Below, in pieces: positions 2,149 through 62,371 of a stretch of 64,000 nucleotides of DNA (its first letter is position 1; each line of letters begins with the position of its first letter). Source of the DNA: Candidatus Binatia bacterium (lineage in GTDB: Bacteria; Desulfobacterota; Binatia; UBA1149; CAITLU01); NCBI GenBank assembly GCA_036493895.1, contig DASXOZ010000048.1, positions 124,001 through 188,000 on the forward strand, read 5' to 3'. The notes below the pieces were generated by a model. The model was not told the origin of the DNA and did not search any database. It saw only the letters and a list, made by a program, of their open reading frames with translations. Made by a program: the position numbers and the translations under genes.

Positions 2149-2342
2149 ACTACCGTAAGTCCACGCAGTACCGACGTATCGCGATGTTGCGATGCCCGGC
2201 TCCGGCGGCCCGCGGGCTGGCCTGCCCGGGCCTCGCACGCGTATGCCGCCCCGGCTCCCGCTCTTCCGTGAAGCCGGCGATTTTCGTAAGAACGGCGTAA
2301 CCGGAGCCCCGGCCCGGCGTCTGACCTCGCGACTGCGCCCAT

Positions 2343-2404
2343 CCAGCCGGCTTCGGGATACCGAAGCCGCAACCCAGCCGGCTCCGGAATACCGAAGCCG
2401 CAAC
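2343..2404 (+). repeat. Tandem 31-bp repeat, each copy holding a hairpin, just upstream of bufA
   Basis: Two adjacent 31-bp units (2343-2373 and 2374-2404) differ at only two positions. Each contains an inverted repeat: CGGCTTCGG and CCGAAGCCG around a 4-base loop, perfect in the first copy and with one mismatch in the second. The second unit ends just before the AGAAGGAGA ribosome site of the bufferin precursor. It could be a double operator or a pair of hairpins in the leader RNA. Confidence 0.75.
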
Positions 2405-2418
2405 AGAAGGAGACGGAA

Positions 2419-2697
2419 ATGACGAAGAGGAACAGGACCCTGATGACGGCTGCTCTCGGAGGGCTGATGCTCGCGGCAACGATCTCGGCGGCTTCGGCCG
2501 ATGAGAAGAAGGCCGCGGATGCGCCGAAGGATGCCAAGACCGGGCAGTGCCACGGCGTGAACTCGTGCAAGGGAACCGGAGCGTGCAACACCGCCACCAA
2601 CAGCTGCGCCGGCAAGAACTCGTGCAAGGGCCAGGGCTGGGTCAAGTCGACCAAGGCCGACTGCGATGCCAAGGGCGGCAAGTTCACCGACAAGTAA
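2419..2697 (+). CDS. bufA: BufA2-like bufferin precursor (copper-buffering RiPP)
   Basis: A 92-residue protein with a strong AGAAGGAGA ribosome site, a Sec-type signal peptide (about residues 1-27, ending ASADE) and a Cys-rich core. The cysteines fall at residues 44, 50, 56, 63, 69 and 82, with the pattern CHGVNSC, then SCAGKNSCKGQGW. This is the layout of BufA2-type precursors of bufferins: periplasmic RiPPs whose core cysteines are converted by a DUF692 iron oxidase and which bind copper. The next two genes are exactly that enzyme and its DUF2063 partner, which makes the assignment firm by context. A DoxX-type BufD and a DUF2282 BufA1 are not present. The upstream tandem palindrome may control it. 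Confidence 0.85.
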   Translation: MTKRNRTLMTAALGGLMLAATISAASADEKKAADAPKDAKTGQCHGVNSCKGTGACNTATNSCAGKNSCKGQGWVKSTKADCDAKGGKFTDK

Positions 2698-2704
2698 GCC
2701 GAAC

Positions 2705-3595
2705 GTGATCCCGCCGTCAGGGAATCCGGTAGGCGTCGGTCTTCGCGCCGAGCACTATCCGCATCTCCTCGAGAGGCCTCGAACCACGGTCGCGTGGTTC
2801 GAGGCCATCTCGGAAAACTACATGGACACGGCCGGACGGCCGCTGTCGATTCTCGAAACAGTTCGCCTCGACCATCCGGTGGCGCTGCACGGCGTCTCGC
2901 TGTCGATCGGTTACAGGCCCGATCCATCGGACAGCGCGCGGCGCGACGCGCTGGCCGCGCTGCGCACGCGCTATCTCGAGCGCCTCGGCGCGCTGATCGA
3001 GAGGATCGAGCCGTTTCTCGTTTCCGATCACCTTTGCTGGACCGGAGTGCCGGGAGGAAACGTGCACGATCTGCTCCCCGTGCCGTTCACCTCCGAAGCC
3101 CTGGCGTGGATCGTCCAGCAGGTCGAGTTCGTGCAGGAAACCCTCGGCCGCCGCATCGTGCTCGAGAACGTCTCGAGCTATCTGACTTGGTCCGCGTCGA
3201 CGATGCGCGAGGAAGAGTTCCTTGCGGAAGTCTCGCGTCGCTCGGGTTGCGCTGTCCTGCTCGACGTCAACAACGTCTACGTGAGCGCCCGCAACCACGG
3301 TTTCGACGCGCGCAGTTACCTGGATGCGATCCCGGCCGCGAGCGTCGCGCAGATCCATCTCGCCGGCCACACCGACATGGGCACACACCTGTTCGACACG
3401 CACTCGGCGCCGGTGTGCGACGACGTCTGGGCGCTGTTCGAGCACACGATCGCGCGCATGCCCGGCGTTCCGGTGCTGATCGAATGGGACGCCGACATTC
3501 CTGCTTACGAAAGGCTGGAGGCCGAGGCGGCAACGGCCGATGCCGTCGCGCGCCGCGCTCGCGCAGGCGCGGCGGCAAAGGACGCAGCGGCATGA
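2705..3595 (+). CDS. bufB: BufB-type multinuclear non-heme iron oxidase (MNIO, DUF692)
   Basis: TIM-barrel enzyme of the DUF692/MNIO family, about 296 residues. Family metal-site blocks appear in order: GVGLRAEHY, WFEAISENYM, LHGVSLSIG, SDHLCW, VLENVSSYL, LLDVNNVYVSARNHG, IHLAGH, DTHSAPV and LIEWD. These supply the His, Asp and Glu ligands of the iron cluster. The family oxidises precursor cysteines to heterocycles, and here the substrate should be the adjacent BufA. I prefer the GTG at 2705, eight bases after the bufA stop. An in-frame ATG at 2666 would overlap bufA. The TGA stop lies inside ATGA, the first step of the triplicated junction leading to bufC. Confidence 0.88.
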   Translation: MIPPSGNPVGVGLRAEHYPHLLERPRTTVAWFEAISENYMDTAGRPLSILETVRLDHPVALHGVSLSIGYRPDPSDSARRDALAALRTRYLERLGALIERIEPFLVSDHLCWTGVPGGNVHDLLPVPFTSEALAWIVQQVEFVQETLGRRIVLENVSSYLTWSASTMREEEFLAEVSRRSGCAVLLDVNNVYVSARNHGFDARSYLDAIPAASVAQIHLAGHTDMGTHLFDTHSAPVCDDVWALFEHTIARMPGVPVLIEWDADIPAYERLEAEAATADAVARRARAGAAAKDAAA

Positions 3596-3658
3596 ACTCC
3601 GCGGCAAGGAATGCAGCGGCATGAACTCCGCGGCAAGGAATGTCCCGGCATGAGCGCG
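3572..3658 (+). repeat. Triplicated 29-bp bufB/bufC junction with ATGA ladder
   Basis: Three tandem 29-bp copies lie at 3572-3600, 3601-3629 and 3630-3658. Each carries GGCAA(A)GGA as a ribosome site and a CATGA overlap. The bufB stop is in copy 1. The ATG at 3592 opens a 10-codon frame that ends on the ATGA of copy 2, whose ATG at 3621 opens another 10-codon frame ending on the ATGA at 3650, which is the bufC start. Because 29 is not a multiple of three, each step is in a new frame. Confidence 0.85.
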
Positions 3659-4438
3659 CCGCACGCTCTGGCATCGGTCCAGTCGGCGCTGGCCTCGGCG
3701 CTGACGGCTCCGGAAACGTCGTGGGCCGAGGATCTGCTCGCCGGCGTCGTTCCCGGAGGCACCCTGGATGCTGCCGGTGCGCTCGCCGTATATCGCGACG
3801 GGTATTTCTGGAGGCTCACCGAGCAGCTCGGCGAGACGTACCAGACCATCTGGCGGGCCCTCGGTGACGAGGGTTTCCACGCACTGTGCCGCGCGTACAT
3901 CGCCGCGCACCGCTCGTCGTCGTACAACCTTTCCGACTACGGCCGGGATTTCGGCGATTTCCTCGAAGGAAGGCCGGAGACGGCCGACGCGTTGTTTCTT
4001 CCCGAGCTCGCGCGCCTCGAGCGCACGTTCCACGACGTGTTCCACTCGCCGGCCCACTGCGGAATGGATGCGGCGGCACTGGCCGCACTCGGCGATCTTT
4101 CAGGCGTGCGCTTCGAGCTCGGTCCCTCGGTGAGGCTGCTGGCGTCGAAGCGGGCGGTGCACGGGCTCTTCCTTCACCGCGAAGACGAGGAAGCGCCGGA
4201 CGTGGAGCTGGAGCGCCCCCAGTGGCTGCTGATGTTCAAGCAGGACACCGAAGTGCGGGTGCACGAGATCGATGCCGCCGGTCACGACGTGATCGCGGCG
4301 CTCGCGCGAGGCGAGGCGGTGGACGAGGCGCTCGGGGCTGCTGCGGCGCGCTTCGAATCGTTCGGCTCCGAAGAGGCAAGCGGCCTTTTCGAGACCATCG
4401 CCCTTTGCGGGATCGTAGCCCGCGTGCGGCGGTCGTAA
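3650..4438 (+). CDS. bufC: BufC-type DUF2063 partner of the MNIO enzyme
   Basis: A 262-residue protein with the DUF2063 N-terminal helical domain. It includes a hallmark stretch around YRDGYFWRLTEQLGETYQ and, further on, YNLSDYGRDFGDFL and FLPELARLERTFHDVF. The C-terminal half (LLMFKQDTEVRVHEID) is the usual small domain that cups the peptide substrate. In known bufferin and related MNIO systems this protein binds the precursor and delivers it to the DUF692 enzyme, and both are adjacent here. The ATG at 3650 is favoured because it starts the recognisable domain and follows AAGGA. An in-frame ATG at 3611 would add 13 repeat-derived residues. Confidence 0.85.
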   Translation: MSAPHALASVQSALASALTAPETSWAEDLLAGVVPGGTLDAAGALAVYRDGYFWRLTEQLGETYQTIWRALGDEGFHALCRAYIAAHRSSSYNLSDYGRDFGDFLEGRPETADALFLPELARLERTFHDVFHSPAHCGMDAAALAALGDLSGVRFELGPSVRLLASKRAVHGLFLHREDEEAPDVELERPQWLLMFKQDTEVRVHEIDAAGHDVIAALARGEAVDEALGAAAARFESFGSEEASGLFETIALCGIVARVRRS

Positions 4439-4497
4439 CGGGTCCGGCGCGGCGCGTTTTGGGCCCCGGATTGGAGCGAGGCGGCCGGGCTGCTACC

Positions 4498-5163
4498 GTG
4501 GCCGCCAGGTCGCGGCCGTTGATCCCTCTTCCCGAAAGAATCCGAATCTTCCCGCTGAGCGAGGTCGTGCTGTTCCCGGACACGCTGCTGCCGCTGCACA
4601 TCTTCGAGCCGCGCTACCGCCGGATGCTCGCCGACGCGCTCGACGGCGACCGCACGATCGGCATGGTGCTCGTCAAGGATCCCGACGCGACGCCGGCGCC
4701 GAGCGTCTACCCGGTCGGTTGCGCCGGCACGATCGTCGAGCACAAGCCGTTTGCCGACGGCCGTTCGCTCGTCGTCCTGCGCGGCACCGTCAAGTTCCGC
4801 ATTCGCCGTGAAATCGATTCGTCCGAGCCGTACCGCATCGTCGAGGCCCAGGCCCTGTACGAAGGTCCGCCGCCGATGGACAAGGTGCGAGGCTGGCGCG
4901 ACGAGCTGCACGAGTGCGTGCGCGAGCTCGTGCAGGCAGCGTCCGGCGAGCAGGACACCGTCGAGAAGCTGTTCGAGAAAGTCGATCTCCTCGCGATGAC
5001 GAACGCCCTTGCAGCCAGCCTTCCGCTGGACGTGCTCGAGAAGCAGAGCCTTCTCGAATGCCCGACCGTCGAGGACAGGGAACGTCGGCTGGCCGAGTTC
5101 CTGCGCTTCAAGACTGCCGAGGCAAGGCTCGGGATGGACGCATCTCGCGCGGTCGACTCCTAG
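4498..5163 (+). CDS. Lon N-terminal (LON substrate-binding) domain protein
   Basis: About 221 residues. The opening RIFPLSEVVLFPDTLLPLHI, then FEPRYRRMLADAL and the later GCAGTIVEH, are the PUA-like LON N-terminal domain found in Lon protease and in stand-alone proteins. A helical tail (DELHECVRELVQ to FLRFKTAEARLG) follows. There is no ATPase or protease domain, so it is probably an adaptor or substrate-recognition protein. I choose the GTG at 4498, with GGAGCGAG upstream; a TTG at 4519 is a possible alternative. The frame stays open far upstream, but that part is a shadow of bufC. The gene points the same way as the HAD gene 63 bases downstream. Confidence 0.75.
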   Translation: MAARSRPLIPLPERIRIFPLSEVVLFPDTLLPLHIFEPRYRRMLADALDGDRTIGMVLVKDPDATPAPSVYPVGCAGTIVEHKPFADGRSLVVLRGTVKFRIRREIDSSEPYRIVEAQALYEGPPPMDKVRGWRDELHECVRELVQAASGEQDTVEKLFEKVDLLAMTNALAASLPLDVLEKQSLLECPTVEDRERRLAEFLRFKTAEARLGMDASRAVDS

Positions 5164-5904: not shown

Positions 5905-6025
5905 AATGGGGTCAGGCACCAGGCGAATGGGGTCAGGCACCAGCGGAATGGGGTCAGGCACCAGCGGAATGGGGTCAGGCACTGGCGAATGGGGTCAGGC
6001 ACCAGGCGAATGGGGTCAGGCACCA
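5905..6025. repeat. Six tandem copies of a 21-bp GGGGTCAGGCACC repeat
   Basis: Units of 20-21 bp, each beginning AATGGGGTCAGGCAC, repeat six times between the convergent HAD and OsmC genes. The same core appears once as an inverted pair at 40831-40864, also between convergent genes. The units abut without unique spacers, so it is not CRISPR. It looks like an expanded dispersed intergenic palindrome half. Confidence 0.85.
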
Positions 6026-17298: not shown

Positions 17299-17374
17299 CT
17301 TGCTCCTCCACCACCCGGCGCTCGTCCGGCGCGCCCCGCGACCGCCGAGTGTAGCAATCACGCCGCGGCCCATA

Positions 17375-17442
17375 AAGCCGGCGGTTGAATGAAGCCGGCG
17401 GAAAGCCGGCGGTCGAACGCGAAACCGGCCGAAAAGCCGGCG
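17375..17442. repeat. Clustered AAGCCGGCG repeats
   Basis: The 9-mer AAGCCGGCG occurs four times at 17375, 17392, 17403 and 17434 in the intergenic space before the enoyl-CoA hydratase gene, with variable spacing. GCCGGC is itself a palindrome. It may be a small expanded repeat or a leader element. No function can be assigned. Confidence 0.5.
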
Positions 17443-44696: not shown

Positions 44697-45701
44697 CTAT
44701 TTCGGCGGCAGCAGGACCGCGCTTCCGCGAATGCCGTCGCCTTTGAGCATCTGCAGGGCTTCGTTGGCCTGCTCCAGAGGGAACGTCACCGTCGAAGCGT
44801 GAATGCCTGCTGCTGCGGCTTCGCGAAACAGCCCTTCCCCGTCGGCGCGCGTGTTCGCTTCGACCGAACGAAGGATCTTCTCGTGAAACACGCACTCCTC
44901 GTAGGGGAGCGGCGGAATCGGCGTCATGTAGATTCCCGCCAGCGCGCAGGTGCCGCCTTTCTTGAGCGCTTTCAGCGCTGCCGGGACGATGTCGCCGGAC
45001 GGCGCGAACACGATCGCGCTATCGACGTGGTGCGGCGGCGCTTCGACGGCCTCGCCGACCCACTCGGCGCCGAGACTTCGCGCAAGCTCGCGGTGCCCGG
45101 CGCCGCGGGTCGCCACCAGCACGCGCTGGCCGCGGCGACGCGCGATCTGCAGCACGATGTGGGCCGAGGATCCGAAACCGCACAGCAGCAGGCTTCCGCC
45201 GCTTGGCACCGACGCGAGGGTCAGCGCGCGGTAGCCGATGATTCCCGCGCACAGCAGCGGCGCGGCCTCGACGTCGCCGATGGCATCGGGAATGGCGTAC
45301 GCAAACGTTTCGGGAACCACGGCCAGCTCGGCATATCCGCCGTCGTCGTGGTACCCGGTATAGCGCGAGGCCGCACAAAGGTTCTCGCGCCCGCTGCGGC
45401 AGAATTCGCAGGCCCCGCAGGTGTGACGCAGCCATGCGATGCCGACGCGGTCCCCGACGTGGAAGCGGCTGCAGCCTTCTCCGATCGTCTCGACTGTTCC
45501 GACCACCTGGTGCCCGGGAACGAGCGGGAGCTTCTGCGGAGCCAACTCCGCTTCGATGACGTGCAAGTCGGTGCGGCAGACGCCGCAGGCGCTGACGCGT
45601 ACGAGGATCTCTCCCGCGCGCGGCTGCGGCGACGCAATCTCGACGAGCCGGAGCGGGCGCGCCGAGAGGTCGGCATTCGTCTCGAGCTGCATCGCGAGCA
45701 T
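44697..45701 (-). CDS. Zinc-dependent alcohol dehydrogenase (MDR family)
   Basis: A 334-residue medium-chain dehydrogenase from the ATG at 45701 (GGGAAG upstream); a second ATG at 45692 is also possible. Catalytic zinc ligands are in ACGVCRTDLHV and PLVPGHQVVG. The structural zinc site is TCGACEFCRSGRENLC. The nucleotide fold reads LLLCGFGSSAHIVLQIA, departing from the usual GxGxxG, as in the adh_fam_2 subgroup I recall. It oxidises alcohols or reduces aldehydes with NAD(P). The C-terminus is complete (GSAVLLPPK). It follows a membrane-protein gene across a triplicated 27-bp junction. Confidence 0.88.
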   Translation of the reverse strand: MLAMQLETNADLSARPLRLVEIASPQPRAGEILVRVSACGVCRTDLHVIEAELAPQKLPLVPGHQVVGTVETIGEGCSRFHVGDRVGIAWLRHTCGACEFCRSGRENLCAASRYTGYHDDGGYAELAVVPETFAYAIPDAIGDVEAAPLLCAGIIGYRALTLASVPSGGSLLLCGFGSSAHIVLQIARRRGQRVLVATRGAGHRELARSLGAEWVGEAVEAPPHHVDSAIVFAPSGDIVPAALKALKKGGTCALAGIYMTPIPPLPYEECVFHEKILRSVEANTRADGEGLFREAAAAGIHASTVTFPLEQANEALQMLKGDGIRGSAVLLPPK

Positions 45702-45782
45702 TTTCACTTCCCTTTCGCCGTCCCGCCTGTTCATTTCCCAGTTGCTGGCGCGCCGGTTCACTTCCCAGTCGCCGGCGCTCCG
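45702..45782 (-). repeat. Triplicated 27-bp gene junction
   Basis: Three tandem 27-bp units (45756-45782, 45729-45755, 45702-45728 in minus-strand order) each carry GGGAA(G/A)TGAA. The TGA in the first is the stop of the upstream membrane-protein gene. The GGGAAG in the last is the ribosome site of the dehydrogenase. It is the second triplicated junction in this window after 3572-3658. Confidence 0.85.
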
Positions 45783-61381: not shown

Positions 61382-62371
61382 ATGCAACGCGGACTGCAGG
61401 CGGGGATCGCCCTGGCGATCCTGATGACGGCGAACTCGGCATTTGCGACGCTTGCCGCGGTATGCGGCGACGTCAACGAAACCGGCACGATCACGTCCAG
61501 CGATGCGCTGCTCGTGCTCAAGAAAGGCGTCGGGCAGAACGTCAGCCTGAGCTGCGCAGGGTACGACGAAGAGGTTGCCGCATGCCAGAGCAACCTTACG
61601 ACGTGCAACGAAGACCTGTCGGCCACCAACGCGGACCTCTCCTCGTGCAACGAAAACCTTTCGGCCGCCAACGCGGCCCTCTCCTCGTGCAACGAAGACC
61701 TTTCGGCCGCCAACGCGGACCTCTCCTCGACGAACGCAGACCTGCAAACCTGCCTCAGTCATCCCGTGTGCGGCAATGGCCTCGTCGAGTCGGGCGAGGA
61801 ATGTGACGTGCAGAACCTCAACGGACACACCTGTGCCTCGCTCGGATTCGCCGGCGGAACGTTGGCGTGCTCGACGGGCTGCGCCATCGACGAGAGCGGT
61901 TGCTATGAGACCCGCTTCGATACCAGCGGGGTCACGACCATCGACCACCAGAGCGGGCTCGAATGGGAACAGAAGGACGGGAGCGACGGCTCGGTCAATG
62001 CCGTCGATCCTCACGACGTCGACAACAAGTACACGTGGACCGCTTCGGACACGCCCCCCAGCGGCACGGCGTTCACCGACTTCCTCGCTGCGCTCAACGG
62101 CGCCTCGACCGGCAGCTGTTACGCCGGCCACTGCGACTGGCGTCTTCCGACGCCGGACGAGTTCGCGACGATCCTGCTCTCGGATTGCCCCGATGGCCCC
62201 TGCGTCGTCGATAGCGCGCTGCTTCCGATGCGCGACGGCTTCTATTGGACCGCCGCAACCGACAGCGTCGAGCACACGGGGGCGATCGATGCCGACCTCT
62301 CGAGCGGATTCGTCGGGCTCGGAAGCGACAAGACGAGCAACTTCTTCGTAAGGGCCGTCCGCTCGCGCTGA
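61382..62371 (+). CDS. Secreted dockerin-like, coiled-repeat, DUF1566 protein
   Basis: A 329-residue protein with GGGAGGGA upstream. A signal peptide ends at ANSAFA. Then come a dockerin-like unit (CGDVNETGTITSSDALLVLK), three near-identical 14-residue units such as NLSAANAALSSCNE that form a Cys-containing coiled stalk, one CGNGLVESGEECD unit, and a C-terminal DUF1566 domain (HCDWRLPTPDEFATIL, FYWTAATDS, FFVRAVRSR). DUF1566 resembles the C-type-lectin-like part of surface proteins. The protein looks like a stalked surface adhesin or receptor. The SDAL motif also ends the protein at 1420. Confidence 0.78.
   Translation: MQRGLQAGIALAILMTANSAFATLAAVCGDVNETGTITSSDALLVLKKGVGQNVSLSCAGYDEEVAACQSNLTTCNEDLSATNADLSSCNENLSAANAALSSCNEDLSAANADLSSTNADLQTCLSHPVCGNGLVESGEECDVQNLNGHTCASLGFAGGTLACSTGCAIDESGCYETRFDTSGVTTIDHQSGLEWEQKDGSDGSVNAVDPHDVDNKYTWTASDTPPSGTAFTDFLAALNGASTGSCYAGHCDWRLPTPDEFATILLSDCPDGPCVVDSALLPMRDGFYWTAATDSVEHTGAIDADLSSGFVGLGSDKTSNFFVRAVRSR
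61612..61745 (+). repeat. 42-bp coding repeats
   Basis: About three near-identical 42-bp units encode the 14-residue NLSAANAALSSCNE-type repeat of the DUF1566 protein. High DNA identity suggests recent expansion and possible length variation. Confidence 0.75.

Follow-up and report, generated by a model that had tools for sequence, protein, structure and literature searches.

We identified a tandem array of three imperfect 29-bp units (positions 3572–3658, plus strand) that runs from the 3' end of bufB into the 5' end of bufC in a 64,000-nucleotide window from a Candidatus Binatia bacterium, the window being the whole stretch of DNA analyzed and the frame of reference for all positions given here. 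The array is real, its repetition is far above chance, and it is an uncommon kind of duplication. Our best explanation, which we consider rather probable as a whole, is that a junction with one unit underwent two duplications, that ribosomes could now reach bufC both by a relay over two minigenes and by starting there directly, and that the insertion was tolerated. The array is likely to be an old, nearly neutral and self-repairing duplication; we infer its two-step history, the use of the relay and the near-neutrality.

The window opens with a bufferin cluster in which NCBIfam and Pfam models place bufA2, bufB and bufC in that order. bufA2 (2419–2697, plus strand) encodes a bufferin-type metallophore precursor of 92 amino acids (NF050166, 78.4 bits; cut-off 60), bufB (2705–3595, plus strand) an MNIO bufferin maturase (NF050167, 338.3 bits; cut-off 310; PF05114 also above its cut-off), and bufC (3650–4438, plus strand) a DUF2063 partner protein of the MNIO enzyme, 262 amino acids long (PF09836, 73.3 bits; cut-off 27.2). 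Against the HvfC model NF050145, BufC scored 51.9 bits, under the cut-off of 142. The bufB stop is the TGA at 3593–3595, and its start is uncertain, being either GTG 2705 or ATG 2666. Precursor, MNIO maturase and DUF2063 partner thus stand in the order of a bufABC cluster, and both gene order and families are like those of known bufferin clusters in the available text of PMC12452194. bufB and bufC also share one reading frame with a single TGA between them (3593–3650), so that UGA readthrough would fuse the two; this shared frame is probably a coincidence. Immediately upstream of the bufA2 Shine-Dalgarno (SD) sequence, a 31-bp direct repeat occurs twice (2343–2404). Each copy has an inverted repeat around GGCTTCGG/CCGAAGCC, with one mismatch in the second copy; the RNA fold of this repeat has a z of −2.7, and a search of the rest of the genome gave one weaker match (E 0.006).

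The first-pass annotation had described a 29-bp unit with a ribosome site and a stop/start overlap, present three times between bufB and bufC, and this description is exact to the base. Unit 1 (3572–3600, plus strand) contains the SD-like run AAAGGA and the ATGA at 3592, which joins the bufB stop to the start of minigene 1. Unit 2 (3601–3629, plus strand) contains AAGGA and the ATGA at 3621, where minigene 1 stops and minigene 2 starts, and unit 3 (3630–3658, plus strand) contains AAGGA and the ATGA at 3650, where minigene 2 stops and bufC starts. Reading of the ORFs bears out the two 10-codon minigenes of that annotation, each of which stops on the next ATGA: minigene 1 (MNSAARNAAA; 3592–3624, plus strand) ends at TGA 3622–3624 and minigene 2 (MNSAARNVPA; 3621–3653, plus strand) at TGA 3651–3653, while ATG 3650 opens the 262 codons of bufC. 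Each of the three positions 3592, 3621 and 3650 therefore pairs a 4-nt ATGA overlap with an SD-like run, the arrangement of a termination-reinitiation junction. The predicted SD duplex energies for units 1 to 3 are −5.5, −5.2 and −5.2 kcal/mol at spacings of 8, 9 and 9, calculated with an assumed anti-SD sequence; a 16S gene was not found in this assembly. GCGCG is found before unit 1 and after the last ATGA, and the internal copies have ACTCC instead. Tandem Repeats Finder (TRF) reports a period of 29, 2.8 copies, 88% matches and a score of 122 for 3572–3653. Units 1 and 2 differ at 3 positions, units 2 and 3 at 6, and units 1 and 3 at 9.

Compared with itself at a lag of 29, the array agrees at 49 of 58 positions, whereas the best 58-nt stretch at any lag from 20 to 40 in 60 Markov-1 simulated windows reached at most 36 matches. 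Strict chains of three ATGA overlaps, each with an SD-like tetramer, occur once in the window and are absent from 633,476 strand-bases of other loci and from 200 Markov windows. Loose chains, for which any NTGA start was accepted and no SD was required, are common by chance (two in the window, compared with an average of 6.2 across 30 Markov windows), so it is the repeat and not mere chaining that is remarkable; we set aside the plain tally of NTGA chains as a measure, since chance yields more of them than the window holds. An assembly or sequencing artefact, to which a draft genome of 81 contigs might be prone, is highly improbable because the units differ from one another (at 3, 6 and 9 positions), and the array is merely 87 bp within a 195-kb contig.

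Relatives of this locus have single-unit junctions. In a genome of the same family (G005) the junction reads GTGAGCGCG, with GTGA followed by GCGCG, and in one of the same class (L028) it reads ATGAGCGCC; neither has a repeat. Unit 1 joined to the sequence following unit 3 resembles the G005 junction. Of the 98 genomes searched, one belongs to the same genus; its BufC is 59% identical, it also lacks the repeat, and its nearest bufC start, 7 nt downstream of the bufB stop, does not overlap that stop. No same-species genome was found among these 98 genomes or in a scan of genome contigs, which may omit near records and which returned one relative. As relatives have a single GTGA/ATGA-GCG overlap, the ancestor probably had one unit, with bufC starting at what is now 3650. 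The pattern of differences between units would fit two successive duplications from this one-unit ancestor, the later of which copied an internal unit that had already changed.

We extended the comparison to 123 bufB loci, made up of 13 of 22 matches (those over the cut-off) and 110 among the matches listed in a second search; 119 of them, our own included, were usable in that the bufB stop fell inside the available stretch. The nearest start overlaps the bufB stop in 88 of the 119 (31 as NTGA, 57 deeper), a count that is too high because the start was picked mechanically as the one nearest to a 4-nt overlap. For the rest, a start lies within about 20 nt in 21 loci (where our own locus was placed through ATG 3611) and farther away in five, and none was found in five. 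Only our own locus has a tandem repeat at this junction (score 58; next best 13), which sets it apart from all 118 other usable bufB loci. Among 31 BufC loci, our own included and drawn from genomes partly shared with the bufB set, lag identity is 0.88 in our own and at best 0.62 in the others, the upstream ORF having been taken mechanically and not always being bufB.

The ancestral junction would have joined bufB and bufC through one SD and one ATGA overlap. Two 29-bp tandem duplications, apart in time, would then have added 58 bp, so that bufC, whose start once overlapped the bufB stop by 4 nt, would now begin 54 nt beyond it. In E. coli, according to the available part of PMC10666635, reinitiation falls by 40–80% when the start lies at +14 nt and is nearly abolished at +38 nt, so that a 54-nt gap should uncouple bufC from bufB. 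Reinitiation across a 73-nt gap is the subject of a report cited within the same source (PMC10666635); on that footing the minigenes would not be needed. With 29 equal to 2 modulo 3 and the relevant frame free of stops, every added unit would turn into a minigene of 10 codons, opening at one ATGA and closing at the following one. Coupling in E. coli needs no more than the final 15 nt of the upstream gene (PMC10666635, available text), a length that both minigenes exceed. Ribosomes leaving bufB could thus be carried across the insertion by short relays, with a 4-nt overlap at each step, and others could initiate on bufC without the relay, either from the SD of bufC itself or, with lower efficiency, from ATG 3611. 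The minigenes would plausibly mend the very coupling that the duplication broke; the duplication would bring its own bridge, and would hence be tolerated. Among five E. coli gene pairs, loss of the SD reduced reinitiation by 60–90% in three and was without effect in one, and in another the SD was essential (PMC6728339, in the part available).

The first-pass annotation went further and held that ribosomes would have to terminate and reinitiate three times to reach bufC, which may tune the BufB:BufC ratio, and that the copy number could vary; both the tuning and the variation are possible. If a fraction r of ribosomes passed each junction, bufC would receive about r cubed and the number of units would set its level. 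The anatomy makes a relay plausible: the chain is intact with an SD-like run at every step despite 9 differences between units 1 and 3, direct coupling across 54 nt is expected to fail on the E. coli distances in the available text of PMC10666635, and the number of 77-bp senX3-regX3 repeats is two in some BCG strains and three in others (PMC9392950, as far as its available text goes). In simulations with an SD definition slightly broader than that of the strict-chain count, the staircase survived 3, 6 and 9 random substitutions in 57, 31 and 16% of cases, respectively; that it has survived in an array whose first and last units differ at 9 positions is a weak, non-significant hint of constraint rather than neutrality. 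The obligation itself is not established, because ATG 3611 skips the two minigenes and ribosomes could be recruited de novo by the third SD. Moreover, the repeat is absent from every other junction examined (30 and 118 usable, in overlapping sets), and so the staircase is not a conserved control. We therefore consider a compulsory three-step staircase that tunes the ratio unlikely.

ATG 3611, which the first-pass annotation overlooked, lies 15 nt beyond the bufB stop and in frame with bufC (275 codons), and the path between them is open; a start there would add a 13-residue extension, MQRHELRGKECPG (3611–3649, plus strand). After the duplication, bufC could have been restarted at this codon by one reinitiation, which would give BufC the N-terminal extension and leave the minigenes irrelevant. 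At +14 nt, 20–60% of reinitiation is retained in E. coli, according to the available text of PMC10666635. Against such a restart, the SD-like run directly abuts ATG 3611 (spacing 0), leaving this codon ill placed for direct initiation, and the first conserved Leu would be preceded by 19 residues from 3611 as opposed to 6 from 3650. In an alignment in which the bufC starts of the relatives were chosen by the analyst, 3 to 9 residues precede this Leu in four of five relatives and 27 in the fifth (L005). A restart at ATG 3611 is thus a possibility that we find doubtful, and 3650 is the most likely start of bufC. Another ATG missed earlier, at 3640, is out of frame and opens 75 codons; the common frame of bufB and bufC had likewise gone unremarked in the first-pass annotation.

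Nothing obvious hides the starts in the array, as the junction RNA is not unusually structured (z +1.5). RNA structure masking the starts was rejected, with 190 of 200 shuffled sequences folding equally well or better. A scan for one promoter type detected no internal promoter in 2200–4600; it likewise finds none ahead of bufA2, and so leaves room for a separate bufC transcript.

The preferred reading, a duplication that bridges itself, carries a simple arithmetic. When an ATGA junction is duplicated with a length of 2 modulo 3, the resulting minigenes stop on the next ATGA; with a length of 1 modulo 3 they stop two units on; and with a length divisible by 3 the downstream protein is lengthened, in each case barring other stops. 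The window contains a second array, on the minus strand (45783–45703), in which a 27-bp unit is present three times (differences between copies of 5, 8 and 7), flanked by a 146-codon ORF that has no Pfam match and an alcohol dehydrogenase gene. The stop of the 146-codon ORF overlaps the first GTGA of this array, and each copy has GGGAA directly against its NTGA. Since the unit length is divisible by 3, the starts at 45761, 45734 and 45707 are all in frame with the dehydrogenase, giving potential N-terminal extensions instead of minigenes. The distances from the ends of the predicted SD duplexes to these starts are 15, 0 and 6 nt, the third duplex alone being well placed. The dehydrogenase itself is likely to start at 45701, judging from its relatives, which have an ATG at the aligned place in five of seven cases; of the other two, one starts at a distance of two codons and the other was misread owing to an incomplete sequence. 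No repeat of the 27-bp type was seen by eye upstream of the gene in the six of seven relatives that could be viewed.

A TRF survey of the window and a further 400 kb of the genome yielded 75 arrays. A mechanical junction test for periods of 15–90 returned four rows representing three loci (bufBC twice), all within the window; with no case in the additional 400 kb, nothing suggests that this genome duplicates junctions as a rule, and the occurrence of two junction arrays in one window may be a coincidence. The degenerate 28-bp repeat at 17366–17442 was dropped as a junction array, as its sequence and ORF list suggest that it separates an ORF on the minus strand from a gene on the plus strand. 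Other repeats in the window include a 42-bp tandem repeat (61602–61744; 3.4 copies, 89% matches) and a 21-bp tandem repeat, AATGGGGTCAGGCACC..., of about 5.8 copies (5905–6025). The genome contains 131 copies of a 16-mer from the latter (71 forward, 60 reverse; none for a backwards control), and among the matches listed these are often spaced 21 bp apart or in facing pairs; this repeat belongs to a large dispersed family.

If the relay works, the array illustrates a way for operons to withstand insertions where neighbouring genes are translationally coupled, and the 2 modulo 3 length rule is simple enough to be applied across genomes. The array is also a natural construct for serial reinitiation over 10-codon ORFs, in a setting where BufC is the partner of the BufB enzyme. 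More broadly, duplication of a stop/start overlap might be a self-repairing route of insertion, of which the 29-bp and 27-bp arrays would represent one of each kind, and the number of units might act as a slippage-driven stoichiometry dial outside mycobacteria; we think it improbable that this wider proposal holds in full. The self-bridging consequence is plausible, and the regulatory reading is speculation.

The ORF of the 77-bp senX3-regX3 repeat itself stops on the next ATGA. This mycobacterial interspersed repetitive unit (MIRU) is the closest known case, being a tandem repeat whose length, like that of the bufBC unit, is 2 modulo 3, and both share a small ORF that stops on a 4-nt overlap with the next gene. 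MIRUs are described in the available portion of PMC12548453 as short repeats at gene starts with a small ORF coupled to the next gene at −4 spacing, and as apparently mobile and interspersed; at the MIRU-VNTR locus senX3-regX3, the tandem 77-bp repeats number two or three depending on the BCG strain (PMC9392950, available text). The bufBC unit, by contrast, is 29 bp long and looks like a duplicate of the junction at which it sits. It has no second strong copy genome-wide (36 other matches, E 0.018 or worse, the best of 21 nt), on which ground a genome-wide element was rejected; the array is not interspersed and is therefore not a MIRU. Among the search results listed from the open-access literature, titles and abstract openings yielded no tandemly duplicated ATGA junction outside MIRUs, which is a weak negative. 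In the axe-txe system, a mini-ORF acts in cis on translation of the next gene in a frame- and distance-dependent manner, and differs from the bufBC minigenes in having two codons, a possible role in mRNA protection and no tandem repeat, as far as the available text describes it (PMC8708949). Ordinary ATGA termination-reinitiation coupling, as presented in the available parts of PMC6728339 and PMC10666635, has the same 4-nt overlaps and the same placement of the SD in the upstream frame as the bufBC array, which differs in setting three serial overlaps and two 10-codon ORFs in the place of one overlap between genes.
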